From an uncultured Treponema sp. (lineage in GTDB: Bacteria > Spirochaetota > Spirochaetia > Treponematales > Treponemataceae), in contig CAMPAL010000014.1 in assembly GCA_946631855.1 (NCBI GenBank), positions 1 to 33,865 of the forward strand: 33,865 nucleotides of DNA. Reading direction: 5' to 3'. A model generated the notes under the pieces. It saw only the letters and a list, made by a program, of their open reading frames with translations, had not been told where the DNA came from and did no database searches. Within the stretch, counting starts at the first letter, position 1. Each line of letters starts with the position of its first letter. The position numbers and the translations under genes are program-made. Below, in pieces: positions 1 to 33,089 of the stretch.

Positions 1-3000
1 AAAGGTATCCCAGTCACCAGCCCAGTAAATTGATGAATAACTGTTATCTTTACTATATGCAGTTGTTTTATCTGAATTACCACCCATGCTGTAAAAGAGA
101 CCACCGTTTGCAAAGGCATAGTTCAACATACCTGTTACCTGGTTTACTTCCATATTTATACCGGTTGCAAGACCATTAATAGGAGTTGCGGCACGGTCAT
201 TGAATTCCCAGACATCAAAGTAGACATTATCAGTTAAGATATTGTTTGTATCTCCGTTTGCCTGGCGGTTGTAACAATTTACATAAGCAGAGCCGTTTGC
301 ACTTGCAGTACCCTTAGCATCATTATTATTAATATTATTTAATACAGGCAATCCACCAACAGTAAGATTCAACTCACCTGTTGCAAGTTTTGCTACATTA
401 AAGGTCAATTGACCAGCTGTATTATTTGTAATACTTAAAAGAGCTGTTTCATTTCCAACAGTAAAGGTATTGCTTCCACTTGTAATTTTTGCCGAATTAT
501 CATTCAAATTGAAGCCATACAAAATTACATCTTCTGAAGTAGAAGTTTTTAATTCAATACTTGAATCTATATTTGATACTACTGACTGAACAGGATAATG
601 ACCTAAAGCAGTTCTGTTATATACAGACCAGTTCGAAGACTTATTCTTAGCAAGGTTTGTATAAACCTTTGTAATATAAGGCACAACATCCATCTTATAG
701 TATCCGGTATTTGTTGTTGAGTTTGTCTGAGTTTCACCAGGAGTACTTGATGCAGGATCTGTATATGACAGTGTTGCTAAGTACTTTGTAGTTCCATCAA
801 TACTTGTTAATGTTCCGTTAGTGTTGTCTGTTGTTGCAGAAGGGATACCAAAGTTTGTTGCAGTCATTGTAACTTCTTTTTCGGTTCCTGTTTTTGAAGA
901 AAGAATTACTTCTGTATCTATGTGAAGTTTCCAGCTTACAGAATGTCCGTCTGCATTTATAGTCTGGCTTCCTTTTACAAGTTCGAACCAGAATCCATTA
1001 TCAGCAAAATCTGCTTTTGCATACTTAGATTCCAGAAGTCCACTTGTTGATGAATATTCTGCAACATCATATGAAGTTCCAAAAATAGAAGCTGATAATT
1101 TTGCAAGAAGTTTTGTATCCGAAGCTACTCCTTCAATTGTAATTTTTCCTGAAACTTTAGGGTCTAAATCATAAAGTTCAGTCTTTGTACTTGCAAAAGT
1201 TGGAGAAGGTAAATCACCCTCAAGTTCGATGTGTCCCTTAAGATTCTTGAATGAAGTTACTTCCGAAGAATCATAAATTGAGTTATCTGTAAGAGAAGTC
1301 CAATGGAAAGGTTTAATTGAAGCTGTTGGAGTTCCTACACTTGCAGCCTGAATTGCAAAATACATAGTAAGACTTGCATTCTGACTATCAGAGAATTTGG
1401 TTGTACCTTCTGTTTCATCCCAGAAAGTAAATTCAAATGGAATACCAGTTGTCGCATTAGTTGTATCACCAAAACTCAAAAGATCTCCCAGCTGAATATT
1501 AATATTGCCTGTAACAGCAGTATAATCTGTTGAACCAGCACTTATAAAGGCGGTTTCATTTTCACCTTCTTTTACAGTACTACCATTTGTAACTTTGTAA
1601 GAATAATAGATAGAATCATTTCCACCTACAATTTCTGGCTGAATAAGAGTGTAACCTCGCAAAGCTGCAATAGGAGCATCTGCACTTCCGTAAGTTTCTG
1701 AAGTTGGCAGAGGATTCTTTGCATTAGTATTTACAACCTTTGAATCAGGATTATAAATATAAGCCCCGGAAGTAGTAGTTCCAGTGTAATAATCTGAGTA
1801 AGATCTGCTTGCTGCATAATTATTGATTGTTTCACCATCGTCTGTTACATCACCGTCGCCGTTGTAGTCTGTCTTAATTACAGCACCAGCAATTCTTGGA
1901 CGATTATTAATAATCTTTCCACTTACAGAATCTTCTTTATAATTTCCAGCCTTGTCGAATACTACATAGCAAAGTTCTACAGGACCGTCTGCAATATTTT
2001 TAGAACATACGTTAGCATTCCAAACCCATGTTGTACCAGTATTATCAACACTTTCAATCATGCGGTCGCCATCGTCACGGGTAGGACTTTCGTAATATCC
2101 ATCATCCTGAATATCTCCGGAAGAAGGTGCTGACTCTACTTTTGTATTATCAACAATTCCAGCGATTGCAACATAAGCAAGACTTATATTTTCTGAAGAA
2201 AGGGCTGTATCCACAGTTACAGTTGTTCCTTCTACGCCTGTAATCAGATAAAGAGCTCCACCTATTTTCATAAGTGCATTTGTTCTGATTCCTGTAGTAT
2301 CGCTAACTCCAAATGAATTTCCAGAAATTGAATTAGCTGTAATAGATTTACGATACCAGTAAAGATTGCTATCTTTTACAATTGTATTTTCAGCAGTAGA
2401 AGTTTCTGAACCAAGGGAAGGAACAGTAGCTCCTAATTCAATCTTATTTTCTGTTTTAGCTTTGAGAATATCGTAAATGTTGCTTCCACGCTTAAAGTAG
2501 AAGGCTGTATAAGCAAAACCTGCCTGTTTAGCTCCAGATGCAGATGTTTCTTCATATACAGAAGAACCAAAAGAATACCAGCTGTTATTCTGATAAATTT
2601 CTTCGCCAATTGAGAATGCCGAACTTGTATGAGGTGCAAGTTCAGGCTTTGTATTATCATAATTAATAACAAGATCTTCAGAACCTGTATGTGTTGTACC
2701 TTCTGCATTATCTGTTGCTTCTACCTTAAAGCTTAAAGAACCAACTCCAGATGAAGTTGAAAGCGGATACTTAAATTTAACAGTCTTTCCACCACCTTCT
2801 GCATCTTCAATAGAAACCTGGTCAGCATAAGTAGCAATTTTTTCACAATTAGAAATGAGTGTAACATTATTTACTATAAGTTCTTTAAGACCCTGTTTAT
2901 CAGTTACAGTTCCTGTTAAATACCATGAATCTTTAACGAACATATCCTTGGTATAAGTTTTTTCTGCAGTACTATCAGTTGTAAGTTTAGCATCGCTAGA

Positions 3001-6000: not shown

Positions 6001-9000
6001 TATTGTAGTTTTATCAGCCTTATCTTTTACTGTGATTGTGAAAGTATAAGTTCCATCTGCAAGGCCCGAAGTTCCTACTGCAAAAGTTTTTGTCCAGGTA
6101 ACTTTACTTGAATCAGAAATAGCAGTAGCAAGAGTTCCGCCTGTTACAGAAACAGTTGAATCAGTATCATCAGTTGAGTATGTATTTGTTCCGTCAGAAA
6201 CCGAAATAGACTTAAGTCCATTTAAATCCCATGCAGTTCCTGTAAGAGTAATGTTTGAATTTGTTATAAGAGTATCTGTTACTGTTGTAGAAGTTGGATT
6301 TGCAGTATCCACTCTGATATAGCCTCTAGAAACTGCACTCACAAGACCATTTTTATCGACAGCGACATAATAAAGATATTTTACAGAACCTTCTATTCCA
6401 GTAAGGTCCAAATCTGTAGTCCAGCTTGTTGAACCTGTAGCGGCTGTCCATCCATTACCAGTCCAGGTTGCTGCTTCTGTTGGATTACCAGAAGTTGGTA
6501 CAGCTGGGGCAGTTTCAGAAGTACTAAGCTGATAGTAAACACCACTTGTTCCTGAATCATCACTTGCACTTCCCTTTACAGTTACTTTTGTACTGTTCTG
6601 GTATGAACCATCACTTACATCTGGAGTAATAATTGAAACTTCAGGAGCAGTTGTATCTAACTGAACTGTACGGCTAACAGAGCCGGTTTTTCCAGCCACG
6701 TCTTTAGCAGTAATTGTATATTCGTAAGTTCCGTCCCCAGCGACAGAGCCTTCTATAGCGACGGTGTAATAGCCTTCTGAGTCGGCAGAAGAAACTGAAT
6801 ATCCATTACCGGCTCCGGCTTCAACTTTTGTCAAAGCAACAGAATCTTTTGTAACAGTTATTGTATAAGGTTCTGTTGTATCAAGTGCATTAGTATCTGA
6901 AGGTTTAAATTTGAAACTATATGCAGAAGTTTTTACCTGTTTAAGACTTGTAGATAAATCTGCATCATCAAGTTTTGTTTCAATTGATGGAGAAGACTGA
7001 TCTACAAAGAATTCTCTGTATACTGAGTTAGATTTGTTTCCAGCCGCATCTTCTGCTTTTACGTGCAGATAATAATGACCTTCATAAAGACTAACCAAAG
7101 TATCAGTGATTGAGTTTGTACCGCTTCCTTCGTTTAAAGTAACGCCTAAGTTCCACTTACCTTCTGAAGCATCCTGAGCATGCCAGTCGGAAGCAGCAGG
7201 TTCGGCAGAAGAAGCTGTAATTGCATAATTCAAAGTAGAAATTTTAGATTTAGTTTGATTTGAACCAGCGGCAGCATCGTATGCAGTACCGGTGAAAGTT
7301 TCTGAATCACCACTGACAGAAACTGCTGTTCCACTTGAAGAAGCCGGTTTTGTAATTGTAAGTGTTGATGGTGCAATATTATCAAACTTACATGTGATAG
7401 ATTTAGAATTACTACTTGGATTCCAGTTTGCATCAAAAACTTTGTAGTAATAAGTTTTATCTGAAGTCTCGCCTGTGATAATATCTTCAATTTCTTTTTC
7501 AGAAGAAACTGCTACCAGGGTGGATAAAACATTTCCACCAGCATCTGTATAATTTAAGCCTGCAACAGGAGTTTCTGGTTTAGTTGCTGGATAATCATCT
7601 GTTGTAAAGTCACTGCCTTCTTTTCTGTACAAATAGAAAGGCGAATCTGAAGCTTCAATTTCTACAATATTTTTCCATTTTGTTTTAGTAGAAGTAGCTG
7701 AGTTTGAAATATATTCACCAACAGCGGCATCTGAATCAGAAGTTACGGCAGTTACAGTAAGCACACTAGGAGCGGCAGTTGTAACTCTTACAAGGAAAGG
7801 ACCTTTTGTTACAACAATTCCGTTTGTATCTGTTACTACAGCTTTAAGCCAGTAATAACCTGCTTCACTTGGCAGATTATATGTAACTGTCATCTGGGTA
7901 GAACTTCCACCATCTGTTGTTTCTTCGCCTATAAAGCTTGCCGCAATAGATGATGATGTTTCGTTACTTGCATAAGATGCTCTTGAAATAGCACAGCTTG
8001 CAATACCATCATCATCAATAACATTAAGAGAAATACTTCCTCCAGAAGGGAAAGAAGATTTTCCGCCGTTTGTACCACTGTCTCGATCATCTTTTGAAGC
8101 ATAAAGAAGACTTGTTGATGTAGCATTTGTTGGCAAAACTACAGGAATATCTGTTGACTGATCTACAGTGTATTCAGAAGAAATTAAAGTATAATCATTT
8201 CCTGCACGGTCACATCCGTAAATTTTAAACTTAATGTTCTTTGATACATAATTTCCATTAGAATCACGATTTGCAATTTGAGTTGTATCAATTGTGTAAG
8301 CACCGTTTATGAGGCTTGTAATATAATGTCTTTCTGTGTTTTCTGTTTCATCTGCAATTTTGAGAGAAATAACTGCATCGCTGTTATCTGCATCTAAAAC
8401 TTCAAGATATGGTTTTTTGTTTTCAGTTTCTGTATCAACAATATCGTAATCATCAATAACCGAAAGTTTGAGAGTAACAGTTCCGTTCAAGTACTGACCA
8501 GTCAATTTTGGAGAAGCTTCGTTGCTTGCATCATACTTTTCGGCAGTTGGTAAAAGACTTCCAATTGAAACTGTTGGAGCATCTTTATCGTAAATAATAG
8601 TTTTATAAATACTTGTTTCCAGCTGTTCCTGACTTGCAGTAATTGTATACTGAGTCTGACTGTTTTCTGTTACTCCGTTGTAATCAATTTCTGTAGAAAA
8701 ACTGTAATAAAGCAAACCATTTATAATTTGACCTTCACTGCTGGTGAAAGTTTTTGTATAAACGGTTGTGTCGGAAGTTGAAATGGTAAGGGTTGGAGTA
8801 CCTTCCTGACAAGTTACAGTTCCTTCAATAAGCTGTTTTCCATTTGCCTTTACATAAGCAGTTGGACTTGAAGGACTTGTTACAGTAAGACCAGGAGCTG
8901 CTCCACTACTTGCAAGTTTAAATCCATAAGGTTTTGAACTGCCAGATTCATCAAACTTTGCAATAACGGCATTTCCTTTTGAGTCTGTACCTTCTACACC

Positions 9001-10326
9001 AAATATATAAGTTGAACCGACAGTAAGATATTTTTCGTTATAATTTGTAGTACTGCTTAAATTTACTGTAAATTTGTAAGAAGTACCCGATTTTGAACCA
9101 GTTCCTGCTGTTGCAAGATAAATTCTATTTGCTTCAGTATTTTCTACACTTGCATTTCCAGAAGCATCACAAGGAATAACATAAGGACGTAATGTAGCAG
9201 CTCTTAGAGGAATTCCATCAAGACCTGTTGCAACTTCAAGAATTACACTGCTTCCGTTGGTGATGTTATAATCTGAACCTTCAAAATCTTGTCCAGACTG
9301 AGTAAGCTGATCTTTTCCGTTTACAAAGAAATAAGGATTGTTTGCAGGGTTCAAACTAAAGTTACTTTCGCTTATCTCATAAGGAGTAAGTAAACTTAAA
9401 ACTTCATTTACAGTACTTGCAGAACGATTTTCGCTGGAAATAAGATAAGTTCCATTCTGCATTTTATAAAGATCTGCTACAGAAACAGTATACTTATCAA
9501 GAATAGCATCATAAATATCATCATACAGATAGTAAACTGAGGTTGGATTTCCATCTGTTAATGATGATGAAGTGTCTTCTTCCAATGGATAATGTTTTGA
9601 TTTATCGTAGGCAGTAATTTTACAATAGCGGGTCACAGTTCCGTTTCCAGAAGTAGAACCATAAATTTCAGAATAAGAGTTTTCTTCTCCTTCTTCAAAA
9701 ACTGCAATATTAAGATTCATTGATGCAGCAACATTTGACTTTGTTATAGTTGTGATATAATCAGTGAAGTCTGCATCTCTATAAATTTCTATATCAATAT
9801 GATCTACGGAGTTATCATCACCATACATTCCTTCTAAAGAGAAAGTTTGACCATATGCATCGGCTTCCTCTGTAAGTTTTGTACCAGGACGCTGCAAAAC
9901 AATAAGTGGTGAAGTATTATCTATTACGAAAGTTTTTGTTTTTGTAACTGTATGACCACCCATATCGGTGATAGAAATGGTTGCTTCGTAAGAACCATCA
10001 ATAATATTCTCTGAAGAAGGCTCAAAGACGGTGTACCATCCCCCCTCGTCCCTGCTTCCAGTTACGGTGGCTTCATGAGTCAGTGGAGAACCAGTTTCAT
10101 CTGTTCTGGCAATTGTTACAGAAACACTGGCAATATCTCCATCATCAGTCCAGGTACCCTTAATTGCAAATGCGTCACAAATAATTGCATCAGTATCTGG
10201 ACTTGTTACGTTAAGAACTGGTGCCTCAGTATCTACGGCAGTACCAAGTCCGATTTCACAAGACAGAATAACGGTAATAGTAAAAAATACACTCAAAAGT
10301 GCAAGACACTTAAAAAACTTCTTCAT
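1..10326 (-). CDS. Giant Ig-array lipoprotein A, 3' end outside window
   Basis: The reading frame is open from ATG 10326 to the left edge (3442 codons), with no stop; the C-terminus lies outside. It begins with a lipoprotein signal peptide: MKKFF, a hydrophobic stretch, then ILSC with the likely lipidated Cys at residue 23, followed by EIGLG. Ig-like beta-sandwich modules follow, separated by hinges such as VDTEAP, IDNTSP, LDTTAP, VDTANP, IDTESP and IDPQGDRP; about 19 are countable. Near residue 3212 the array ends at a VPYI motif, followed by a conserved NNINNND / NGDTNNILTDNV module. The protein is colinear with the neighbouring giant (10516-23466), which predicts roughly 400 more residues beyond the edge. 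It is rich in Ser, Thr and Asp and poor in Cys. It is inferred to be an envelope-anchored, probably surface-exposed protein; adhesion or ligand binding is a guess. A G-tract (GGGG) seven bases before the ATG is the only ribosome-binding candidate. Confidence 0.85.
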   Translation of the reverse strand, partial: MKKFFKCLALLSVFFTITVILSCEIGLGTAVDTEAPVLNVTSPDTDAIICDAFAIKGTWTDDGDIASVSVTIARTDETGSPLTHEATVTGSRDEGGWYTVFEPSSENIIDGSYEATISITDMGGHTVTKTKTFVIDNTSPLIVLQRPGTKLTEEADAYGQTFSLEGMYGDDNSVDHIDIEIYRDADFTDYITTITKSNVAASMNLNIAVFEEGEENSYSEIYGSTSGNGTVTRYCKITAYDKSKHYPLEEDTSSSLTDGNPTSVYYLYDDIYDAILDKYTVSVADLYKMQNGTYLISSENRSASTVNEVLSLLTPYEISESNFSLNPANNPYFFVNGKDQLTQSGQDFEGSDYNITNGSSVILEVATGLDGIPLRAATLRPYVIPCDASGNASVENTEANRIYLATAGTGSKSGTSYKFTVNLSSTTNYNEKYLTVGSTYIFGVEGTDSKGNAVIAKFDESGSSKPYGFKLASSGAAPGLTVTSPSSPTAYVKANGKQLIEGTVTCQEGTPTLTISTSDTTVYTKTFTSSEGQIINGLLYYSFSTEIDYNGVTENSQTQYTITASQEQLETSIYKTIIYDKDAPTVSIGSLLPTAEKYDASNEASPKLTGQYLNGTVTLKLSVIDDYDIVDTETENKKPYLEVLDADNSDAVISLKIADETENTERHYITSLINGAYTIDTTQIANRDSNGNYVSKNIKFKIYGCDRAGNDYTLISSEYTVDQSTDIPVVLPTNATSTSLLYASKDDRDSGTNGGKSSFPSGGSISLNVIDDDGIASCAISRASYASNETSSSIAASFIGEETTDGGSSTQMTVTYNLPSEAGYYWLKAVVTDTNGIVVTKGPFLVRVTTAAPSVLTVTAVTSDSDAAVGEYISNSATSTKTKWKNIVEIEASDSPFYLYRKEGSDFTTDDYPATKPETPVAGLNYTDAGGNVLSTLVAVSSEKEIEDIITGETSDKTYYYKVFDANWNPSSNSKSITCKFDNIAPSTLTITKPASSSGTAVSVSGDSETFTGTAYDAAAGSNQTKSKISTLNYAITASSAEPAASDWHAQDASEGKWNLGVTLNEGSGTNSITDTLVSLYEGHYYLHVKAEDAAGNKSNSVYREFFVDQSSPSIETKLDDADLSTSLKQVKTSAYSFKFKPSDTNALDTTEPYTITVTKDSVALTKVEAGAGNGYSVSSADSEGYYTVAIEGSVAGDGTYEYTITAKDVAGKTGSVSRTVQLDTTAPEVSIITPDVSDGSYQNSTKVTVKGSASDDSGTSGVYYQLSTSETAPAVPTSGNPTEAATWTGNGWTAATGSTSWTTDLDLTGIEGSVKYLYYVAVDKNGLVSAVSRGYIRVDTANPTSTTVTDTLITNSNITLTGTAWDLNGLKSISVSDGTNTYSTDDTDSTVSVTGGTLATAISDSSKVTWTKTFAVGTSGLADGTYTFTITVKDKADKTTIKTREITIDTVNPVLESTAVSVTNGTSDYKDIDSVRWYKTRTIKVSASPSDNINGSGVDSISYSTVAYDSTNPNANRNWTDLTFDSTNSVYKGSVSFDSDGLDTVYFRVKDKAGNTIGENDNLYYRSYYIDTESPDTAEVIKVGDKTSDFATVYVNGTDDKDLYISAADKSVANASSGIGSVKLYKVGTNAQSALTSDDGELQTTGDYAGLWKITIKAKDYSTGKVVVEITDKVGNTSYKFDAFQMQLDNTYPSATINAVTDALTTTDTVIDVNKTFTLSGTASDDRSLSSVKLQYKKSSDTTWLDYPVALTGTTSWSVSIDTVNAVQSDGTKVFDDDPTSYDFRISASDDSGNTGNSGEERDTTGSNAYSDSNVLTLYVNQDSDRPLITFTNLTINGMSASAPVWLKNSTTLLGIISDDDGVTSLSYKTDLSAANWTPVTVNNGAWSITLREGASTLYFQVVDKASTTEFTSEVSATATSVLTTPKLSDGTNSIVSGIPVYMKVDKTSPVYENLRFSYWDGTAYTAYSESLATVGGKRTKFRLNFTAGDENGIASVSLTVGENTTTVSTPDSTESSKRTNDKYYSTWTIPDVSVENLDSQSLKATLTITDTAGLEKTDLIDVVVDNTPSTATVSYPLSSATVSGDVSSYGDLTEIATLYYAVSPSSTNPDVLNGAKITSWLNGDSDSQDEDADGEKYSVDSEDWIQVTDASTKWTINFNNFTGSGTCAKSLNKYIIDYKIANKDSTDEAVDSIVSSFDDVVILYLHLKTIDAVGNVNHASYPIYIDPQGDRPSISFSYPLENDGTMGGKVSIYGTASDTEGTNKGVDSVWVQIKSTTHRAAEDTTTYGTSPTYDSATDSISMTLTKEDLDYMAANGYSVYKRSDYVVGGTNTAWVSGQSLGTGESADDYAALATLNGASWNITINKVVQTITTTYTDETGEEQTDTRNLFEFDPPYGVNNNPIAIRVYARDGDGKFSQKAERYVSFDADNPVISDLVLVQSSDAKLTTDSTAEKTYTKDMFVKDSWYLTGTVTDKQGLKELIVNNVTLISNCEKIATYADQVSIEDAEGGGKTVKFKYPLSTSSGVGSLSFKVEATDNAEGTTHTGSEDLVINYDNTKPELAPHTSSAFSIGEEIYQNNSWYSFGSSVYEETSASGAKQAGFAYTAFYFKRGSNIYDILKAKTENKIELGATVPSLGSETSTAENTIVKDSNLYWYRKSITANSISGNSFGVSDTTGIRTNALMKIGGALYLITGVEGTTVTVDTALSSENISLAYVAIAGIVDNTKVESAPSSGDIQDDGYYESPTRDDGDRMIESVDNTGTTWVWNANVCSKNIADGPVELCYVVFDKAGNYKEDSVSGKIINNRPRIAGAVIKTDYNGDGDVTDDGETINNYAASRSYSDYYTGTTTSGAYIYNPDSKVVNTNAKNPLPTSETYGSADAPIAALRGYTLIQPEIVGGNDSIYYSYKVTNGSTVKEGENETAFISAGSTDYTAVTGNINIQLGDLLSFGDTTNATTGIPFEFTFWDETEGTTKFSDSQNASLTMYFAIQAASVGTPTASIKPFHWTSLTDNSIYDSSEVTSFKNLKGHIELEGDLPSPTFASTKTELYDLDPKVSGKITIEGVASDTKLLAKLSASIFGTSYDVAEYSSTSGLLESKYAKADFADNGFWFELVKGSQTINADGHSVSWKLHIDTEVILSSKTGTEKEVTMTATNFGIPSATTDNTNGTLTSIDGTTKYLATLSYTDPASSTPGETQTNSTTNTGYYKMDVVPYITKVYTNLAKNKSSNWSVYNRTALGHYPVQSVVSNIDSSIELKTSTSEDVILYGFNLNDNSAKITSGSNTFTVGNETALLSITNNTAGQLTFNVAKLATGELNLTVGGLPVLNNINNNDAKGTASANGSAYVNCYNRQANGDTNNILTDNVYFDVWEFNDRAATPINGLATGINMEVNQVTGMLNYAFANGGLFYSMGGNSDKTTAYSKDNSYSSIYWAGDWDTF

Positions 10327-10439
10327 AATATAACCCCAAATAAAATTAAAAGTGTGTCTTTTTTTAAATATTTAAACTCTCACCTTTCTAATATCGGTAT
10401 AAAATGACTATTTTCCAAAAAAAAGTTGTTATTAATATC
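10327..10439 (-). promoter_or_regulatory. Leader/promoter region of giant lipoprotein A
   Basis: This AT-rich stretch lies between the terminator of the upstream giant gene and ATG 10326. Because that terminator is strong, a promoter for gene A must lie here unless readthrough drives it. On the minus strand a TTGGAA at about 10414-10419 is followed 17-18 bases later by GATATT/ATATTA, which is a weak sigma-70-like candidate. No recognisable operator or riboswitch is visible, and no small ORF looks real. Confidence 0.35.
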
Positions 10440-10475
10440 AAAAAAAAGCACCAAATTTTTGAAAATTTGGTGCTT
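10440..10475 (-). terminator. Intrinsic terminator after giant lipoprotein B
   Basis: On the minus strand the RNA would form a long perfect hairpin: AAGCACCAAATTTT against AAAATTTGGTGCTT (10446-10475). The central TG means the real loop must open to at least four bases. It is followed directly by eight U residues (A-run 10440-10447 on the plus strand). It starts 41 bases after the stop codon at 10516. Stem plus U-tract is a textbook rho-independent terminator, and it separates the two giant genes into two transcription units. Confidence 0.9.
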
Positions 10476-10515
10476 ATAACAAAAAATTAGTTTCTTTTTC
10501 TGAATTTTTAAGTTT

Positions 10516-13500: not shown

Positions 13501-16500
13501 TTTTACTGTCTTAAAGGCAGAACCCTTAGTTGGGTTCGAATTGTAATCATAACCATTAGCAGAAACTACAAGTTCAGAAGTAACATCTGTAGCTTTTGTC
13601 AGATAGTTTCCATCAATCTTGCGTTCCTTACCCTTGTAATACTTAGTATCACATTCTGCGGCCTGCATTTCTCCATCTTCATTAAAATCTGACCAGACAG
13701 TAAGACTTGCAAGTCGTGGTGCATTATTTGCAATATTTACTTCTACAGATTCTTCAGCATACTTTCCGGCCTTATCGAATGCAACATAGTGAAGTGTTAC
13801 AGCTCCGTCTTTCATGTTCTGAGAATTGATATTTGCTTCCCATGTCCAGGTTGTTCCCTGTTTATTTACAGATTCCAGCATGTGGTCGCCATCATCTCCA
13901 GACAGAGTTTTATAGTAACCATATTTTCCGTCTTCGGTAGAACGTTCTCCAGCTCCAGATTCAGCCTCTTTATTTACAACATTTGCAATTGCAAATTTTA
14001 CAGTTTCAGTAAGAACAGGATTTCCAGAGGCATCTTTCTTATATTCAGGCTGTCCGTCAATTTCAATGCTTAATCCATTTTCACTAACACTGCTTATAAA
14101 GTAGATTGAACCCTGAATCTTACAAAGTCCTCCTGCATGAACATTAGGATCAATTGAAGTAAGACGTAAACTGCTCTGAGAATCTGCATCACGAGTTACA
14201 GATACAGATTTCCACATAAGACCATCTTCTTCTGTAAGATCTGCCCAGCTTACTTCGCTGTTTGCTTTTGAACGCATTACATCATAAACAATATGAGAAT
14301 TACCTATATTCTTTTCAAACCAGAATGCAAGATATGCAAAACCGGACTGAGTTTTATTATCAATACTGTTTTCAGTTACCTGAGCACCAAATGTATAGAA
14401 GAAGTTATCATTCTTTACATTTGTATTAATTGAATACTTACTTCCGCTTGTAACATTAACCGGAGCTTCGTTATCAAAATTAATACTATATGTTTTCTTT
14501 TCTGTATGTGGTGATGAATCAACATTATCTGTAGCAGAAACTTCAATACTCAAGCTTCCTACACCTTCTCCACTTTCAAGTTTATACTTAAAGCTTTCAG
14601 AAACGTTTTCTCCACCATTTACAGTCTGTTCAACTCTTGCACCTTCAGGTCCAACTTCAAGAGTTTTAATGCCCTGTGTATCAGAAACATTTCCACAAAG
14701 CCACCATACATCTTTAATCCACATATCTGCTTCATAAGGACGAGATGCAACTATATCACCAATTCCGTTTACATTATCTGAATACTGACGAAGATAAACA
14801 TTACTGATTACAGGGTTATCTGAGTCAAATACACCCAGCATTTCCTGATAGCGGCTCAGGTTGTTATCTTTATCTTTTGCATAAACACGGAAAGCAATAG
14901 GATTTACTTTTCCAGTTCCAGGGTTAAATTCTCCAATTCTGTTGATTTTTTGAGTCCATACAGAAGAGCTTGAGAAAGTAGCCTTTATGTAGTATGCAGA
15001 ACCGTCAGCATCATCATCACCAGTTGGAGCAGTAGTTACAGGAGTTGGAGTTGCATTTGTAATATCTGTATAAACTTCATACAGTTTTGTACCAGAAGCA
15101 TTTTCTGCATTTACCCACTGCTTAACATCTTTAAGTTTTGGAGCAAATGATTTTAGGGTGTAGGCATGTGAATAACTTGTTTGTTCCTTATCATCAACTG
15201 TTTTTACAACCGGTGTTACTGTATCAGTAAACTTCAAACTTCCAGTTGTACTTTCCCAGTCTTGAGTACTTGTGATTGTTGAAGAGTCGTATGCATTTTC
15301 TTTTGCAGAAATAATCTGAATCCATACAGAATCTACACCGTTATTAACGCCTCCGTTATCACTTGCATTACCTCTTAATGTAACATCGCTACTTAATGTA
15401 GTTCCATTTTCTTCAGGATATTCAATGGTTACAGTTGGAGCATCTCCCTGAGGGTCAATTAAGAAATCAAATTTTTCTACTGTAGAGTTTCCAGCTTCAT
15501 CAACAGCCTTCATCCAGAGATAAGCCTGAACGATTGTTGTAAACTTTTCAGCAGTAACTGTAGTTTCAATCTTATCTTTTGTTGTAACTCCAGAATCAAT
15601 TAAGAACTGTTTTACAGTTTTATCATGACTGGCTGTTGTAGAAGAAAGACCGTCAAAATAAACATTCCATGAATAACTGTCTCCAATTACAGGAGTATAG
15701 TAAGGTTTATAATTACATGCAGTTGAACCAGCAGTTCCATTTTCATCTTTCCAGCCTGTAATTGCTGTTACTTTTGCAAGTTCATCCTCTGTATTGTCTA
15801 CAGCAGGACTTGTTGTATCATTTAAAGAAAGTGCATAGTACAAATATTCCGATGGAGTATCTGTAGAATCCTTATTCTTCCATTTTGTAAGATTTGTTTC
15901 TCCTGAAGCAGTTACTGAACCACTTGAATACTGACTTGCACTTGGTAAAGTTCTAGTTATAGTTGGTGCAGTATTATCAACAACAATTGTAAATGTATCT
16001 GTGCTCTGTCTTGATCCATCATTAACTACAATAGAACATGACTTAGTACCATCACTTACATTTGTTGAAGACAAAGTAATAGTATTTGATTCATAGTAAT
16101 AAGCATCTGGATATGCAGTTAATTCTGCATTCACAGTTTTTGTAAATGTAATAGCAGAACCTGTATATCCAGGAATTGTCATTGATACTGGAGCAGATAT
16201 ATACTGCAAGTTCACATCATATACAGGGACTCTAATCTTAATTTTAGGTCTATAAGTTCCACCAAAAGGTAAAGAAGAAATTTCAGACTTAGCTTTCCAG
16301 ATTGGATTATCTGAATCAACATCAGTTGTAAACTGTAATGGTCCAAGATATGGATCTGTAGTATCAATTTTAATATAAGTTACAGTTATCTTTCTTCCTG
16401 TATCCGAATCTCTATATCCGTATTTATTACTATCTGAATCTGTCAGTTTTGGTGTTTCTTCACTATAAGAATCGCTGCTTGAAGAAGTAAATGTTTTATT

Positions 16501-19500
16501 ATCTTCAGTATCAGTTACTTCAAAGTAAAGATCATTTGGTCCATCAGCCAGACTGATATTAAAGCTTCCGTTTGAAAGGGTTGCATTATTCCAGCTACCG
16601 TTTTCACCAATTTTATATCTAACTCCGCTAACTCCATCATCATCAGTTACTGAACCATACAAGTTTCCGGAAGAGAAAGGTAAAGGTGCAGACGATGCCA
16701 TTACAGCATCATTTTCTCCCAAAAGCTTAAGATTTTGGAACTGAATTACAGGACGGTCTGTATCCTGATCTACAATTACAGTAAATCTATTTGAATAGCC
16801 TGTATTTCCAGGTTCATCTTTTCCAGCAACCATAAAATAAACTGTTGTTTGATGAACATCATTATCGCCATAAGTTTTTTCAAGTGATGGTGTATTAATG
16901 TTAGTAAAGGTCCAGCTGTTGTCAGATGTTGTTTCAGCTAATTTAACCCATGCTGAATCTGCATCTGTTCCAAAGTTGTCTGTATCTTCAGATCTTGTGT
17001 AATAAAGAGTCAGAGGTTCTGATGTAGAAAGTCCGCTTGTATCACTTGCAATTCCACTTAAAGACATCTTGCCATTTACTATATTTATTGACTCTCTTGT
17101 ATCTGCAGATGATGAAGTCTGAATTGTCACAGAAGGGCCGGTTGTATCTACCAGAATTGTTGCAACTGGTAAAGTAGAAGTGTTGCCTGTTCCGGCTTTA
17201 TCTACTGCGATTGCGGTAATTGTTTTAGTTCCTGTACAGCCTGCAAAAATAGAATGTGGAACATCACATGTCCAATCATATCCACCTGTTATTGCTGTAA
17301 GATTATCGTCATCTAATGAATATGTATAAGTATGAGTATCATCTACAGTAACAGAAAGGCTAAGTGACTTAACACCGGCTTGTGCATCTGTTACAGTTCC
17401 TGAAAGTGTAATATTTCCACTGCCACCGTTTGAGTACTGAATACCTGTTGTATTTGTTGTAATTACAGGTCCATCCTGTTCAACATTTAAAGTAAAATAT
17501 TTATTAGTTGAACCAGACGGAATATCAAGACTAGAGTTTCCTACATTATCAGTAACTACTAATACAAGGTAGTTTGTACCTGTATTAAAGCCAGACAAAG
17601 TTTCCATAAAGTTTGAAGAAATTGTCTTATAGTATCTGTCGTATTCTGTTCCGTTATCAGCTGCATCTGAAAGCTTAGTTCCTCCAAGAGTTGCAGAAGC
17701 TGCTGTAGCTCCAGGAGTTACGTTGTAGCATACATTCTTCTGAGATTCTGTAGAAAGCTTAGAAATTACTCCTGTTGGAGAAGTAAGTACCAGATTCTTT
17801 AATTCATCATCTGTTTCTGTAGGTGCTGTCTGTGTTACATAGTAGTAAACCTTAGAAGCCCCGGAACCGCCAGTTTCATCTGCAAAGTATCCGCGGATTT
17901 TCATTGTAAGGGCATTACCATAAGTTCCACTTTCATATTTTCCACCAACGTCAGTGTCGTAATCTGCATGAGTTGAATCTGTTACGACCTCATTATCATT
18001 TGAGCCTACACGTAAATAAAGGTCCTTATTTTTAACATCAGTAAGATGAGTTACTATAGGTCCTGTTACATCAAAATTAAGAGTTACATTTCTAGTAGTT
18101 TTATTGCCTGCTGCATCAGTTACAATCACTTTGATTTTGGCACCAGTTTCTTCTGTCCAGCCAGTAAGATTTATTCCACTGTAAGTCCATACATAAGCTG
18201 CAGTATCTCTGAAAGTTTCAGTTATATCTGGAGTTTCTGGATTTGCTGTATCTGTACTGCCATAAGTTGTATTTGAATTTTTAAAGATTTCAACTTTTAC
18301 ATTATCAACACCACTTGTATCACTTGCATTTCCAGAAAGTGTAAAGGTTCCTTCTGTATTATTTACAAAATAATTATATGCTGATGATGGCTGATAAACG
18401 GCGTAGTTTGAATTTTCTTTAGTAAGAGAAATATTTGTTAAACCAGGATTTGTATTATCATAAACAAGGCTGAATGGAGTAATTGTAAAACTAGTTCCAG
18501 CTGTATTTACACCACTTACAGAAAGTACCTTACTTGTATTTTCTGTTGAGCCAAAATCTTCAGCACTTGGAGTGAATGAAGCCTTATAAGTTCCATCCAC
18601 CGAATATTGAATAGTTGGAGTGATTTCAGTAGTTCCTAATTTGAAAGTAAGACCTGCTATACCGCTCTCTGGATCTCTAAATTCACCCCAAACTGTAAGT
18701 TCTGTACTGCCATTTACAAAAACAGTTCCACTTACAGACTTTTCAGTTCCTTCTGTTCCAAGCTTGTATCTCTGAGCAGAAAGTTCTGGAACACTTGGGT
18801 CAATATTAATAATAATTGGACTGTTATCTGTATTAAAATAATTTACGTTACCAGCATTATCTTTTATGCGGATAAAGAGTTTCTGTGCACTTCCAGTCTC
18901 AGTAAACATTGCATTTGCAGAATAGAAGTCACTTTCACCATTTTCTCCGCTCTCCAGTGAAAGTACAACCCATGAAGAATTTGCAGGACTTGTTTCACTT
19001 GCAGAAGAAGCAAGTGTTGCATACTCAACAGAAGAAACTTGTGAACCTGTTTCTGTAATGTTGTCTACACTTATGTTCAAAGAAAGAACCTGAGCGTTAT
19101 ACCAGTTTGAAGAATTGTCTGTATTTGCTGAAATTGGGTCTTTACCGGCAATTGAAATTGCAGAAATTACAGGCAAAGTTGTATCCACAACAATAGATTT
19201 TGTAAGACTTGCATTTGTTCTGCCAGCATTATCAACAGCTGAAATTACATAAGAATAAGAGCCTTCTCCAGGATAATCTGTAAATGACCATACAGCTCCA
19301 TTTGTATTTGGTATATAAGTCCATGTAGTATTTGCAGCTGATGAAGTTGTTAGGCTTCCATTATTAATTATTGTAAAGGTTTCTTCACTTGAATCTGAAG
19401 CAACTCTTTTTACGGTGAAAGTATTTACACCATTAGATTCTGTTACAGATCCTGAAAGCTGAACTTTTCCATTATCAGTTTCAGTCTTCTTTACATAAGC

Positions 19501-22500
19501 GGTGCTTAAAGTTTCTGTTACAAAAGGTGCTTCCTGATCAATGTAGAAAGGCTTTTCTATATGAGTAGATTCGTTTCCTGCCTTATCAACAGAATAAATA
19601 TAGAATGTGTGCTGACCTTCGTACAAATCTGCTTCACTTCCAGATGTACCAGTTCCTAAAAGTTTTGTAAGTTTCCACTGGCTTGCATCATTACAAGAAA
19701 CCTGAGTATAAGAAGTTTCATCATCAAACTTATAGAAGATATATGCACTTCCAGTTCCGCCGTCATTATCTGTAGAAGTTGCTTTAAAGGTGAAAGTATT
19801 TCCAGAAAGAGAATTATCACCAGAAATTGTTCCTGCTGGAGCATCCAGTGTAAGTTCAGGAGGAATGTTATCAACTGTTACAGTACAAACAGAAGTTGTC
19901 TTTTCTTTTCCGGCAGCATCTGTTACATAGAGAACATATCTGTAAGTTCCATTCACCGCTTTTGCAGGATCTGCACTATCTGCGGCAAAATTTTCTCCAT
20001 CTGCTGCACGAGGTAAATCTCCACATGTCCATTCATTTCCAGAACGGGTCAGTCCACTGGTGATTGTTACAGGGTCCTCCCCTTCCTTAGTCTGAACAAG
20101 TTTTACAGTCGCAACAGCGTTTGAATCGTAAGCACGTCCTTTAAGACTGAACTTATAACCATAATCAAAGGCATTTGAAGCGATTGTTCTTTCATCAGCA
20201 TTTCTATCAATATATTTTGCAATAGTAGCTTCTGGATCTGAAACATCATAAATAAAGGTTTTTGTAGACCATTCACTTTGGTTACCAACATTATCGATTG
20301 CACGGGCATAAATTGTATTCTGACCTTCGTGCAGATTTAATTCAGAGAAGCGGGCGATATAAGACCAGTTTTCTGTTCCGGAAGCAGTGTAAACTGTAGA
20401 ATGATCGGTATCAAAATCGATTTCAACAGCTGCAACTCCAGACAAATTAGCACTGTTATAAAGATCATCTGCATGACCTGCAAAAGTGTAAGAAGCGTTA
20501 TCTGTACCTACAGAAGAAGCACTTATATCTGAAATTGTAAGAGAAGGTACTGCATTATCAACTTTATAATCTACAGAAACAGCTTTTCTCTTTCCAAAAA
20601 CATCCCTTACTGTATAACCAATTGTTCCGGAAGAAGAAGCAGCCGCTGGTGTAAAGGTATCTGTTACAGTTGGGTATTCTCCGCTATCATCAACAGTCAA
20701 TTGTGCATCTGGATTATCATTTCTTGTTACAGTGTAAGGTGCAGAACCGTCTGTAATGGCAAGAACAACTGTAAAATCCTTCTTTATATAAGATGAATGA
20801 AGATTTGCAGAATCGTTTGTTGTAACATAAGCCGGACTGATTGATTTAGAAACTTCCGGTGCATTACCAGTACACTGAACATAAATCTTCTGAGTCTTTC
20901 CTGAAGTTGGCAGATTGCCCACCATATCAGTAAGTTCAATTTCAAGCTCGTAAGCCCCAGTTTCGTCTGGGAAAGAATAAGTTAAAATTGGACTAGTTGG
21001 ATTTCCTCCTAATGTAAGATATTCTACATCAGTTGAAGATTCATCTGCAACAAATGTTACAGAACCCTGAGTCTGATTCTTTTTACGGGTAATTTTAAAA
21101 CCAGATGATGTAGATGTAGAATTCATAAATCCATCATCATCACTAAGTTTAAAGGTAACTGTTGCACCCTTTGTAATTAAGTTTTTACACTCTGTATCAG
21201 TATTTTCAAAAATTTGAGTTCTTAATTCCGTATATGTGGAAATTTCCGCATCAAGGGAAGTTCCATCTACACAAATAAATGGGAAATCTGAAGACTGATC
21301 TACTGTATAAATGTAAGAAAAATCAGTTGAGTTTCCGGCTTCATCATAAGCGGTAAGTACCACTTTGATATATTTTACAGCTGATGGATTTTCTGAATCG
21401 TAAGTTAAAATCTTTGTTGTATCAAAAGTAAAACTAAAATCATCAGGATTTGAAAGAGGCTGATTTACTAAAGTAGCATCTGAAACTGCTGTCCAGTTCG
21501 AAGCAGCAGATGGTGCTGTATCTTCAGTTGTGAAAACAGTCCATTTTGCATTTTCAGAATTTAATCCTGAATAAGAATCTGAAAGTAAACCTGTAAGAGT
21601 TACATTTCCGTTCAAAAGTCCCAAAGTTGCAGAAGTTGAATCTGCAATTTTTGGTGATATTGCATAGTTTTTAATTGAAGGTCCTTCAACATCATAACGA
21701 ACTGTAACTGTATCGTAAGAAACTTTTCCATTACTTGCTTCAATACGGATTGAATACTGTTTTGTCTGAGTCTGACTGAAAGTGTCAGAAGGAATCATGT
21801 ATTCAAAAGTACTGCTGCCATTTTCGGCCAGATTTGTATACATAGTATGTGGAGAACTTGTACTTGTATCAGTAACAATTGGCTCTGGATTTGTTGATTT
21901 ATCTTTGAAAATACTGAGCGCTGCAAGTCCAGTTTCAACACCAACAGAACCTTTCACATAGAGTGGTGAACCTTTATGAAGATAGATTACTTCATCACTT
22001 GTCCAGTTTACCCCGTCTGTACTTGTCTGAATCTGTCCTAAATCTGGAGCTGCACCGTTTGAAACAAAGAGGAATCCATAACCTTTTCCATTTGGAACAA
22101 CGGCATTTCCGTTAACATCATATCCTTCTACACCAAAAATGTAATACGGATTATCAACATTCAAATCAAGAACAACATCTGTATTTTCTGCTGTACGACC
22201 ATGAACCAGAGAAACTACAAATTTGTAAGAAGTACCAGATTTTGCCCAGGTTCCCTTATCAGCAAGATAAATTCTGTTTTCTGCAACATTTGAAACACTT
22301 GGATTTCCGTAAGAATCACAAGGAAGTACATAAGGACGCAAATCTGTTGGGTCAATAGAAATACCATCAAGACCGGTAGCAACTTCAACTACTACTTCCG
22401 AACCGTTAGTAATATCAATGTTGCCAGGAGTAAAATCATTTCCGTCTTTTTCCAGCTGATCCTTACCGCTTACAGAAAATTTAGGGTTATTTTCAGGGTT

Positions 22501-23466
22501 CAAACTGAAGGTACTTTTTTCGATATTATGATTACTTAAGATAGTTTCAATGTTCTCACTTTTAGCTGCACGACTTTCATCAGAAGTTGTATAAAGTCCA
22601 CTTAAAATTTTATAGATATCATTAGCAGAGAAATCGGAAAGTACTTCTTTATAAATATCATCATACAAATAATAAACTGATGTAGAGTTTCCAAGCAAAT
22701 CTTCGGCAGAAACTTCGCCTGTTGCAGGGTAACGTCTGGCATTATCATAAACTGTAATTGTACACCAGAGATTTTTTGTTCCCGATTTTTCAGTAGAACC
22801 GTAAATTTCAGAATAATCGTTTGTAGAATGTTCTTCAAATTCCGCAAGATCCAGTTCAATTACATGAGAAATATTTGATTTAGTGATTGTCTTTAATAAA
22901 TGAGCTTCATCACAGGCTGCATTGTCATAAACTTTTACATCAATATGATCTATCTGGTTTTCTTCACCGGCAGAACCATCCATGGAGAAGGTCTGTCCAT
23001 AAGCATCTGGAGTTTCACCAACTTTTGTTCCAGGACGTTTTAAAACAATAACAGGTGCAGTATTATCTATCTTAAAACCACGATTGACTTTTGTAGCATG
23101 TCCACCTTCATCGGTAATAATAACTGAAACTTCGTAAGATCCGTCTAAAATATCTTCAGCTACAGGATCAATTACACAAGTCCAGGTTCCTTCACCAATA
23201 TTTGATTCAGTAAGAACTGCGTCATAAGAAACAGCATCTCTAAATCCATCTGGACGAGAAAGTATAACTTTTAAAGATGATATTTTTCCATCATCACTCC
23301 AGTTTCCCTGAATTGCAAATGAGTCACGAATAACCGAATCGGTTTCAGGAGCTGTAATAGATACAGAAGGTGCTTTTGTGTCAACAGCTGAACCTAAACC
23401 AATTTCACAAGATGAGAAAACAATAATGACAAAAAGGTACAATAACCCCTTAAAAAGCTTATTCAT
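10516..23466 (-). CDS. Giant Ig-array lipoprotein B with propeller-like C-terminus
   Basis: 4316 residues in one uninterrupted frame. A lipoprotein signal (MNKLFKGLL, hydrophobic core, FSSC) puts the lipid Cys at residue 20, followed by EIGLG as in protein A. A conserved N-terminal block follows (PGTK, DAYGQTFS, SVYYLYDDIY, FSLNP..NP..V.GKDQL), then Ig-like modules with about 22 hinges (VDTKAP, IDNTAP, YDVSDP, VDNIPP, IDQEAP, VDTTLP, FDVTGP, IDPQGDAP and others). The array gives way near residue 3650 to a VPYI module, an NNINNND / NGDSNNLLTDDV segment, then repeats with alternating aromatic strands (VYLAYYDS, VVAVWWDGTNH, VHIAAYDSTNGDIWYAY, PYISYYAS) to the end. These resemble beta-propeller blades, but the fold is inferred. 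It is probably a very long envelope-anchored stalk carrying a distal domain. The gene has its own terminator. The 172 bases before it contain no gene. GGGGGC six bases before ATG is a poor Shine-Dalgarno. Confidence 0.9.
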   Translation of the reverse strand: MNKLFKGLLYLFVIIVFSSCEIGLGSAVDTKAPSVSITAPETDSVIRDSFAIQGNWSDDGKISSLKVILSRPDGFRDAVSYDAVLTESNIGEGTWTCVIDPVAEDILDGSYEVSVIITDEGGHATKVNRGFKIDNTAPVIVLKRPGTKVGETPDAYGQTFSMDGSAGEENQIDHIDVKVYDNAACDEAHLLKTITKSNISHVIELDLAEFEEHSTNDYSEIYGSTEKSGTKNLWCTITVYDNARRYPATGEVSAEDLLGNSTSVYYLYDDIYKEVLSDFSANDIYKILSGLYTTSDESRAAKSENIETILSNHNIEKSTFSLNPENNPKFSVSGKDQLEKDGNDFTPGNIDITNGSEVVVEVATGLDGISIDPTDLRPYVLPCDSYGNPSVSNVAENRIYLADKGTWAKSGTSYKFVVSLVHGRTAENTDVVLDLNVDNPYYIFGVEGYDVNGNAVVPNGKGYGFLFVSNGAAPDLGQIQTSTDGVNWTSDEVIYLHKGSPLYVKGSVGVETGLAALSIFKDKSTNPEPIVTDTSTSSPHTMYTNLAENGSSTFEYMIPSDTFSQTQTKQYSIRIEASNGKVSYDTVTVRYDVEGPSIKNYAISPKIADSTSATLGLLNGNVTLTGLLSDSYSGLNSENAKWTVFTTEDTAPSAASNWTAVSDATLVNQPLSNPDDFSFTFDTTKILTYDSENPSAVKYIKVVLTAYDEAGNSTDFSYIYTVDQSSDFPFICVDGTSLDAEISTYTELRTQIFENTDTECKNLITKGATVTFKLSDDDGFMNSTSTSSGFKITRKKNQTQGSVTFVADESSTDVEYLTLGGNPTSPILTYSFPDETGAYELEIELTDMVGNLPTSGKTQKIYVQCTGNAPEVSKSISPAYVTTNDSANLHSSYIKKDFTVVLAITDGSAPYTVTRNDNPDAQLTVDDSGEYPTVTDTFTPAAASSSGTIGYTVRDVFGKRKAVSVDYKVDNAVPSLTISDISASSVGTDNASYTFAGHADDLYNSANLSGVAAVEIDFDTDHSTVYTASGTENWSYIARFSELNLHEGQNTIYARAIDNVGNQSEWSTKTFIYDVSDPEATIAKYIDRNADERTIASNAFDYGYKFSLKGRAYDSNAVATVKLVQTKEGEDPVTITSGLTRSGNEWTCGDLPRAADGENFAADSADPAKAVNGTYRYVLYVTDAAGKEKTTSVCTVTVDNIPPELTLDAPAGTISGDNSLSGNTFTFKATSTDNDGGTGSAYIFYKFDDETSYTQVSCNDASQWKLTKLLGTGTSGSEADLYEGQHTFYIYSVDKAGNESTHIEKPFYIDQEAPFVTETLSTAYVKKTETDNGKVQLSGSVTESNGVNTFTVKRVASDSSEETFTIINNGSLTTSSAANTTWTYIPNTNGAVWSFTDYPGEGSYSYVISAVDNAGRTNASLTKSIVVDTTLPVISAISIAGKDPISANTDNSSNWYNAQVLSLNISVDNITETGSQVSSVEYATLASSASETSPANSSWVVLSLESGENGESDFYSANAMFTETGSAQKLFIRIKDNAGNVNYFNTDNSPIIINIDPSVPELSAQRYKLGTEGTEKSVSGTVFVNGSTELTVWGEFRDPESGIAGLTFKLGTTEITPTIQYSVDGTYKASFTPSAEDFGSTENTSKVLSVSGVNTAGTSFTITPFSLVYDNTNPGLTNISLTKENSNYAVYQPSSAYNYFVNNTEGTFTLSGNASDTSGVDNVKVEIFKNSNTTYGSTDTANPETPDITETFRDTAAYVWTYSGINLTGWTEETGAKIKVIVTDAAGNKTTRNVTLNFDVTGPIVTHLTDVKNKDLYLRVGSNDNEVVTDSTHADYDTDVGGKYESGTYGNALTMKIRGYFADETGGSGASKVYYYVTQTAPTETDDELKNLVLTSPTGVISKLSTESQKNVCYNVTPGATAASATLGGTKLSDAADNGTEYDRYYKTISSNFMETLSGFNTGTNYLVLVVTDNVGNSSLDIPSGSTNKYFTLNVEQDGPVITTNTTGIQYSNGGSGNITLSGTVTDAQAGVKSLSLSVTVDDTHTYTYSLDDDNLTAITGGYDWTCDVPHSIFAGCTGTKTITAIAVDKAGTGNTSTLPVATILVDTTGPSVTIQTSSSADTRESINIVNGKMSLSGIASDTSGLSTSEPLTLYYTRSEDTDNFGTDADSAWVKLAETTSDNSWTFTNINTPSLEKTYGDNDVHQTTVYFMVAGKDEPGNTGYSNRFTVIVDQDTDRPVIQFQNLKLLGENDAVMASSAPLPFSSGNLYGSVTDDDGVSGVRYKIGENGSWNNATLSNGSFNISLADGPNDLYFEVTDTEDNKTFTSSSSDSYSEETPKLTDSDSNKYGYRDSDTGRKITVTYIKIDTTDPYLGPLQFTTDVDSDNPIWKAKSEISSLPFGGTYRPKIKIRVPVYDVNLQYISAPVSMTIPGYTGSAITFTKTVNAELTAYPDAYYYESNTITLSSTNVSDGTKSCSIVVNDGSRQSTDTFTIVVDNTAPTITRTLPSASQYSSGSVTASGETNLTKWKNKDSTDTPSEYLYYALSLNDTTSPAVDNTEDELAKVTAITGWKDENGTAGSTACNYKPYYTPVIGDSYSWNVYFDGLSSTTASHDKTVKQFLIDSGVTTKDKIETTVTAEKFTTIVQAYLWMKAVDEAGNSTVEKFDFLIDPQGDAPTVTIEYPEENGTTLSSDVTLRGNASDNGGVNNGVDSVWIQIISAKENAYDSSTITSTQDWESTTGSLKFTDTVTPVVKTVDDKEQTSYSHAYTLKSFAPKLKDVKQWVNAENASGTKLYEVYTDITNATPTPVTTAPTGDDDADGSAYYIKATFSSSSVWTQKINRIGEFNPGTGKVNPIAFRVYAKDKDNNLSRYQEMLGVFDSDNPVISNVYLRQYSDNVNGIGDIVASRPYEADMWIKDVWWLCGNVSDTQGIKTLEVGPEGARVEQTVNGGENVSESFKYKLESGEGVGSLSIEVSATDNVDSSPHTEKKTYSINFDNEAPVNVTSGSKYSINTNVKNDNFFYTFGAQVTENSIDNKTQSGFAYLAFWFEKNIGNSHIVYDVMRSKANSEVSWADLTEEDGLMWKSVSVTRDADSQSSLRLTSIDPNVHAGGLCKIQGSIYFISSVSENGLSIEIDGQPEYKKDASGNPVLTETVKFAIANVVNKEAESGAGERSTEDGKYGYYKTLSGDDGDHMLESVNKQGTTWTWEANINSQNMKDGAVTLHYVAFDKAGKYAEESVEVNIANNAPRLASLTVWSDFNEDGEMQAAECDTKYYKGKERKIDGNYLTKATDVTSELVVSANGYDYNSNPTKGSAFKTVKATTRFIPELVGGNNELYYTYKYGSAAALDSATPKKGSATIGNGTDDGIDEDVDSDGYYIKDDNESAYISGHSDVYVEIPGSVEGEQEGDYTLNMLGNSTSNAEPTWFEYTIYDTTEGSTAWTETENYTNGRLSAKFRVALNVQYRDTTKPNVTIDNLYWKSLSDNSVYSSKSKVTSVADLEGHIELPADFGTTAIATTSDGTTAYGADDPKVSGIIKVEGDTFDDIKLKEIWVQMSNHTNLSTSVKASTYTGTWSKVAYSAETGWGFEAKDVFCNGEGHKVHWTLIVDTAKRTDQAQLDQTVKVYAVDDRGAAATNTSDETEYKMDIVPYIAGLKTGLSKFKKGNSSVFDRTSLGSYAVSSTETFYIYGFNMGGAKVYDSANTEVALTALTDEEVAALEWYSSSAKPAGSVYSLSASTLKSGNLTVKTKNISSLNNINNNDVKGSYDKPVNLTDNPTGDEEIYSNYYNRCPNGDSNNLLTDDVAIKIWQFDSTAVTPKVGSIEHPVMAIDPVNKNIGFAFVGGTAYFSMPYGKNSKNVTPNSFEYWIGGLDAWNSVSLAYDINGYSYATAAGGDLNTSKNGVDIFRFTTSRWNGKGTLTTEGYKDLNNQFGMEYIGEREYFLDTDGTWKDFTNFSKERIKSPSLATVASTEDTSKATVYLAYYDSINDEIRFSWGVIKNKKDDSDDTGMFGTHFDATRTSVAYSISKTSLIAGQTTNKAISTTPTYASSPVTTTSGQNVYAGEYVSIAALSGAGDSDNAVVAVWWDGTNHAMKYSYNKKPTGIAKGEYLQSETGWSAPVEIFSGEVGEYCKVTVDANNGVHIAAYDSTNGDIWYAYLKDFDNTSTKKVGCLDSNGFVGSELNIDVALVNNNPVPYISYYASNAAKPKIAKWVGSALTSTSSVAGAEDDLFTSNWEVSYVPTQSKLTLDHINVAVWKTNAGVLTTSLPGTKSFVSKAGSTDNSYGTVWGNGTNNEVLGYAIKTGSVGYIETAQIK

Positions 23467-23610: not shown

Positions 23611-23638
23611 AAATATATTAATAATATCGGTTAAACTG

Positions 23639-33088: not shown

Positions 33089-33089
33089 A

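Follow-up and report, generated by a model that had tools for sequence, protein, structure and literature searches.

The Brachyspira pilosicoli protein BPP43_05035 is a surface lipoprotein with a non-catalytic, sialidase-like beta-propeller and a role in N-glycan-dependent attachment (PMC11444514). Going by its description it resembles the proteins reported here in being a spirochaete lipoprotein with a propeller, but it is only 463 amino acids long, has six blades and no Ig-like stalk, and was described as unique to its species (PMC11444514). Lipid-anchored arrays of Ig-like domains, as in our family, are a feature of Leptospira LigA and LigB and of other Ig-like spirochaete adhesins. The Lig proteins are far shorter than the members of this family and have no propeller head. 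Very long Ig-like or beta-sandwich stalks with the ligand-binding parts near one end are also present in the giant BIg/RTX adhesins, such as SiiE and the ice-binding adhesin. These giant adhesins are exported by type I systems and are not lipoproteins. For SiiE, type I secretion is described in PMC5466336. The exchange of a C-terminal or specificity part by inversion at repeats within a gene is known from the shufflons (Rci/PilV) and from PsrA, an HsdS-inverting tyrosine recombinase encoded beside type I restriction-modification (R-M) genes (PMC7096588, PMC11709252). The head cassettes described below are similar to these systems, but what they would exchange is a giant-lipoprotein head, a recombinase lies beside the cassette in one relative only, and the inversion is predicted. 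The Photorhabdus beta-propeller lectins PLL and PHL are like one of our heads in predicted fold (Z 20-22, 8% identity), but they are soluble stand-alone lectins with no detectable sequence relationship. Ig-stalk lipoproteins, propeller adhesins and shufflons are already known kinds; in the open-licence full texts searched we found no description of this giant-lipoprotein family, no combination of Ig stalk, propeller and head cassette, and no sigma-28-type promoters on giant lipoproteins.

The window analysed here is one whole contig (C14, 33,865 bp) of the genome of an uncultured, gut-type Treponema sp. (G000), which consists of 2.65 Mb in 217 contigs and is 77% complete. It includes two adjacent giant lipoprotein genes on the same strand, named A and B (Table 1), which confirms the tandem arrangement and the sizes given in a sequence-only reading of this DNA. 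That reading also placed them among the largest surface-protein genes, and this is correct in absolute size, but within the genus, where frames of 3000-7600 aa are common, they are ordinary. The 13-pair terminator-like hairpin that separates B from A indicates that each gene is probably its own transcription unit. A plasmid origin was rejected, as tblastn against PLSDB gave no match. At the opposite end of the contig, positions 31538-33836 include SLBB/polysaccharide-export-like and GNVR-like genes (weak Pfam matches), a content that suggests a surface polysaccharide locus.

Table 1. Location of the features of the two giant genes and of related loci; positions without a locus prefix are those of the window.
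Feature	Position	Strand	Description and basis
Gene A, giant lipoprotein	1..10326	-	at least 3442 aa; open at the contig end, cut inside the head; paralogue of B
A signal peptide and lipobox Cys C23 (ILSC-EIGLG)	10258..10326	-	sequence; Cys invariant in 44-member alignment
A conserved N-terminal anchor module	8917..10326	-	residues ~1-470; A/B comparison, family alignment
A stalk, Ig-like array	700..8916	-	residues ~471-3209; Big_13, DUF4625
A seam motif YKMDVVPYI	673..699	-	residues 3210-3218; identity to heads of other species rises from ~25% to ~75% here
A head, part in the window	1..672	-	IPT-like segment (named by eye from the sequence) and propeller start; class common to genes of G095, G092 and G076
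Candidate sigma-28-type promoter of A	10390..10417	-	TGGAAAATA-N9-TACCGATATT; held-out PWM 10.0, shuffle p ~0.03
Terminator-like hairpin (intrinsic) after B	10446..10475	-	13 pairs and T run; 0.0 expected in shuffles
Gene B, giant lipoprotein	10516..23466	-	4316 aa; complete, single uninterrupted frame
B signal peptide and lipobox Cys C20 (FSSC-EIGLG)	23407..23466	-	sequence; Cys invariant in 44-member alignment
B conserved N-terminal anchor module	22057..23466	-	residues ~1-470; signal helix, Ig-like domains, helical insert (AlphaFold)
B stalk, Ig-like array	12535..22056	-	residues ~471-3644; Big_13
B seam motif YKMDIVPYI	12508..12534	-	residues 3645-3653; motif comparison
B head	10519..12507	-	IPT-like segment and beta-propeller, ends ETAQIK; AlphaFold, Foldseek and VIA-align matches
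B propeller proper	~10519-12051	-	AlphaFold
Candidate sigma-28-type promoter of B	23623..23651	-	TAACGATAA-N10-AACCGATATT; held-out PWM 9.5, shuffle p ~0.04
G153 inverted start-less head cassette	L169:3742-6490		opposite strand to the neighbouring giant gene
G156 inverted start-less head cassette	L216:6440-9415		inverted beside the head of the expressed giant gene
PDDEXK_2-type genes or C51-gene relatives near heads	L025:12732-13631, L169:2465-3304, L216:9840-13885, L069:7019-7912		

BLASTP comparison of the two proteins gave two collinear blocks that span both ends, 1-1831/1-1806 (31% identity, 1e-174) and 2393-3442/2846-3875 (32% identity, 1e-119). The first 400 residues are 50-52% identical, the middle part 27-34% (with one bin at 38%) and the part toward the C-terminal end 35-42%; the high-low-high profile of the sequence-only reading is real, but mild at the C-terminal end. 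The other likenesses that it listed, namely the shared lipobox context, the conserved first 400 residues and the Ig-like modules common to A and B, were all recovered, and its account of the two as paralogues, giant lipoproteins composed of anchor, Ig-like stalk and C-terminal head module, is supported. The lipobox cysteine directly follows a hydrophobic signal helix, and signal peptidase II (LspA, PF01252) scored over its cut-off in G000 and in four relatives. The proteins of the family are predicted to be lipidated and may be displayed on the surface. For residues 1-490 of B, the AlphaFold model (pLDDT 88, pTM 0.77) has its PDB matches among Ig-like structures. The Ig content of A and B recognized by Pfam consists of Big_13, Big_7 and DUF4625: B has a Big-type domain (Big_13, 39.6 bits, cut-off 27), and A is assigned through DUF4625 (33.2 bits, cut-off 27), its Big_13 score of 24.2 being just under. 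B does not belong to the OmpL47 type, since it scored 57.8 bits with the NCBIfam OmpL47 equivalog (cut-off 250) and 28 with the barrel_OmpL47 model (cut-off 40), and no NCBIfam or Pfam match named A or B as Lig.

Of 196 genomes sampled across the genus that contains T. bryantii, 150 have the N-terminal module according to a profile built from the four N-termini of this genome. The named relatives are T. bryantii XBD1002, Treponema sp. JC4 and rumen or faecal Treponema MAGs. The module is also found in other genera of the same taxonomic family and, weakly, elsewhere in the phylum; it is absent from one 1.1-Mb genome of that family. Members are mostly open frames of 3000-7600 aa, one frame reaching 10,197 aa, and two to four of them often stand in tandem. 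The genome analysed here has at least four copies: A, B, C (contig C51, 3641 aa) and D (contig C33, cut, at least 2854 aa). Contig C51 opens with a 454-aa head tail that matches the last 60 nt of A at 59/60 positions and ends normally, followed by copy C and a phosphoglucomutase gene. Phosphoglucomutase follows an array in three relatives: in G104 the array is of the ptsI-cmpB type, as in the window, and in G148 and G153 of the ABC-permease type, as for copy D; the genes upstream of copy D encode binding-protein-dependent transport permeases (Pfam). Contig C51 may thus continue A, which we prefer, or else D, and as these gene orders point both ways a triple array B-A-C is not claimed. In the first case A would run on to a normal end instead of being broken by a stop just outside the window. 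PDDEXK_2-type nuclease/transposase genes or C51-gene relatives recur beside giant-gene heads (Table 1). A giant gene of G156 appears to be split before its head into two overlapping frames of 547 and 881 codons (L217:1-4257), by a frameshift or a sequencing error.

The last ~510 residues of B were modelled by AlphaFold as a beta-propeller (pTM 0.80, pLDDT 75), and most heads of the family end in ETAQ[MIL][KR] or a near variant. Solved structures of head-like fold include the lectins PLL, PHL, BP39L and RSL, sialidases and WD40 proteins, so that the predicted fold resembles bacterial lectins and sialidases. When the model was compared by VIA-align, the Photorhabdus lectins PLL and PHL were among the best solved matches (Z 20-22 over ~300 residues, 8% identity), and the head sequence had no match in the PDB at E values up to 1. 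WD40 and other propellers nearly equalled the lectins in score (Z ~20), and the propeller fold is therefore no proof of sugar binding. The fold would suit a binding head, the ligands of which would probably be glycans.

Heads and anchors differ in the relationships that they indicate. When A was compared in fine windows with genes of three other species, identity rose from ~25-30% to 70-88% between residues 3208 and 3269. The opposite change is found in a tandem pair of G042, whose members are 98/91% identical at the N-terminal end, 58-84% in the stalk and ~25% in the head, the fall from ~80% to ~25% occurring between residues 2747 and 2834. Both switches coincide with a conserved motif ahead of the head, Y[KRQ][MV]D[VI]VPY[IV], which we call the seam; some heads have no recognisable seam motif. 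Heads of other species are 72-75% identical to the head of A, that of B 42%. Among complete members the correlation between anchor identity and head identity was r = 0.09 (24 genes), and r = 0.03 (19 genes) when the first 232 residues past the seam were used. In the anchor tree the four copies of this genome group, together with one gene of G092. A single clade of the A, B and C heads was rejected by the AU test when A was completed with the joined C51 tail (p-AU 1e-24) and, because this join is uncertain, also with the in-window residues only (p-AU 1.4e-4), while a clade of anchors from the four genes with A-class heads was likewise rejected (p 6e-75); the clades were picked after the identity tables had been seen, so these p-values are descriptive. 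Differences in rate cannot yield conflicting topologies, and recombination near the seam is therefore required. Judged from these trees, the head of A does not descend with its anchor, and heads appear to be swapped both within and between species by recombination at the seam or shortly before it. As the mosaic pattern is also present in the T. bryantii isolate and in low-contig assemblies, it is not an artefact of one MAG. Recent gene conversion among the copies of this genome was rejected, as their longest identical stretch is 26 nt.

Heads in the 44 genomes inspected are nearly always located inside giant frames, and in two of them an inverted, start-less head cassette was found in addition (Table 1). 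The G153 cassette consists of a promoterless 639-codon open head frame that starts at the seam. A 55-nt inverted repeat (91%) covers the seam codons of both the spare head and the giant gene, a palindromic site is present, and a gene for a phage-integrase-family (tyrosine) recombinase adjoins the cassette (PF00589, 1e-28). The array of G156 is contained in a single 2.9-Mb contig; here the promoterless frame including the head has 992 codons, and the spare and expressed heads share a perfect inverted repeat (411 nt, 100%). Reading frames agree across the inverted repeats in both genomes, and inversion is thus predicted to yield an intact gene with the other head, from which we infer that heads may be actively switched in these relatives. 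A second orientation was seen at neither cassette. Using the G153 recombinase as query, we found no recombinase in the surroundings of the G156 cassette, no close relative in the genome of A and B, and no giant-gene heads beside its relatives in other genomes. Several of these relatives adjoin type I R-M genes with hsdM and a split hsdS (Pfam, three loci), which suggests that type I R-M is phase-variable in several Treponema genomes (L202, L205, L206 and others). A 438-aa head ORF of G020 was rejected as a cassette because it looks like part of a frame-broken giant gene. No silent inverted head was found beside A and B in the window or on the other contigs of this 77% complete genome; for these two genes head exchange is evolutionary, and programmed switching is not claimed.

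The sequence CCGATA is located upstream of all four copies of this genome. It recurs in the -10 element (CCGATAA) of the T. denticola flaB2 promoter, a sigma-28 promoter with a mapped start site and a -35 TTAA (PMC9481697); the boxes of the family have the same elements. The candidate sites of C and D are strong and those of A and B modest, so that the case for the promoter rests on the family. CCGATA is present on the coding strand in 36 of 87 distinct family upstream regions and on the reverse strand in 8, against 2.0 in shuffles and 3/104 upstream of control genes from the same loci, and the aligned boxes read T-N-AAG, 15 nt, GCCGATAA. Upstream regions were scored with a held-out PWM (five-fold cross-validation, threshold at 95% of shuffles), and 75% of the 79 free ones exceeded the threshold on the forward strand vs 8% on the reverse (Wilcoxon p 2e-12). 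Eight genes close behind another open frame had mostly low scores, as expected for operon followers. A strict form of the pattern had only five matches per genome in the three genomes scanned and marks the flagellin FlaB and an FlgM-like gene, both named by eye from the sequence. One FliA/WhiG sigma factor scored over the cut-off in each of the five genomes tested (in G000, TIGR02479 with 298 bits, cut-off 189.6). Outside the genus the signal is patchy, being clear in ~4/20 upstream regions. Taken together, these data point to most members belonging to the motility regulon, with predicted transcription by sigma-28. The strict pattern is also found upstream of a conserved ~290-aa lipoprotein gene in 3/3 of the genomes scanned (L129, L133 and L134), and of an outer-membrane-protein-like gene on G000 contig C180 (L140). 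Some matches, at adenosine-deaminase-like and aminotransferase-like genes, were discounted as in keeping with the count of a reversed control pattern.

We consider it reasonably likely that A and B are lipid-anchored, adhesin-like giants of the motility regulon with exchangeable heads. Such a protein would start with a signal peptide and a lipid anchor; conserved Ig-like domains would follow, then a long Ig-like stalk, the seam motif (YKMDVVPYIT), an IPT-like segment and a C-terminal beta-propeller acting as the binding head. Promoters of the sigma-28 (FliA) type would couple production of the giants to that of flagellin. Recombination at the seam or shortly before it would combine a lineage-specific anchor and stalk with different heads, and in some relatives inversion could bring in a spare head that lies inverted beside the expressed gene. 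The putative function in adhesion or ligand capture, supposed by the sequence-only reading, is now backed by the predicted lectin-like propeller fold and the sigma-28-type promoter. The more specific proposal, that in this sigma-28 family DNA inversion at the seam flips the lectin-like heads and thereby varies, within clonal populations, the glycan specificity carried on long stalks, is tentative, and we rate it at somewhat less than an even chance.

The history of the pair could be considered a simple old tandem duplication, in which function kept the ends, the stalk drifted and heads were never exchanged. A and B lie side by side, are collinear and resemble each other more at the N-terminal end, and the anchors of this genome form a clade, as expected from the whole-gene duplication that the sequence-only reading had proposed; the heads, which it took to be conserved along with the anchors, do not group. 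The strong conflict between head and anchor topologies, which rates alone cannot produce, and the G042 pair with its near-identical anchor and strongly diverged head make this explanation very unlikely. We also find it improbable that the CCGATA boxes serve another factor or are left over from the common ancestry of the regions ahead of duplicated genes: the members are homologous, so their upstream regions could share descent, and the consensus spacing is one base longer than that of E. coli, but the distance from the site to the ATG ranges from ~33 to 165 nt, the signal is missing on the reverse strand, and the same bipartite pattern precedes the FlaB and FlgM-like genes.

Two other explanations concern the role of the head. 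If the heads were enzymes, similar to sialidase or polysaccharide-lyase propellers, the proteins would be hydrolases tethered at the surface and acting on glycans of the rumen or gut. The top solved Foldseek matches of the B head model are indeed sialidases and PL24/GH93 propellers, but the Asp-box SxDxGxTW that marks GH33 sialidases is absent from the A and B heads, with one weak match in C, and non-catalytic lectins match the structure at least as well, so we give this possibility little weight. A structural envelope scaffold in the periplasm, surrounding the periplasmic flagella and using the propeller as a protein-protein module, would agree with the sigma-28-type promoters and with the frequent binding of proteins by propellers, the transfer of the anchor to the cell surface being itself inferred. 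However, some 20-30 Ig-like modules should far exceed the width of the periplasm, and diversity and exchange of heads would be typical of exposed, ligand-facing domains; we regard the scaffold as unlikely and favor the adhesin-like giants with exchangeable heads.

In the literature searched we found no explanation of the means by which commensal treponemes of the rumen and gut attach to fibre, mucus or other cells, and the occurrence of the family in named isolates such as T. bryantii and Treponema sp. JC4 makes the question of attachment testable. The promoter predicts that synthesis of the adhesin is coupled to motility, and the seam predicts which part of the protein is the head unit. If the inverted cassettes flip, C-terminal head switching of lipoproteins would join the known routes of surface variation in spirochaetes.
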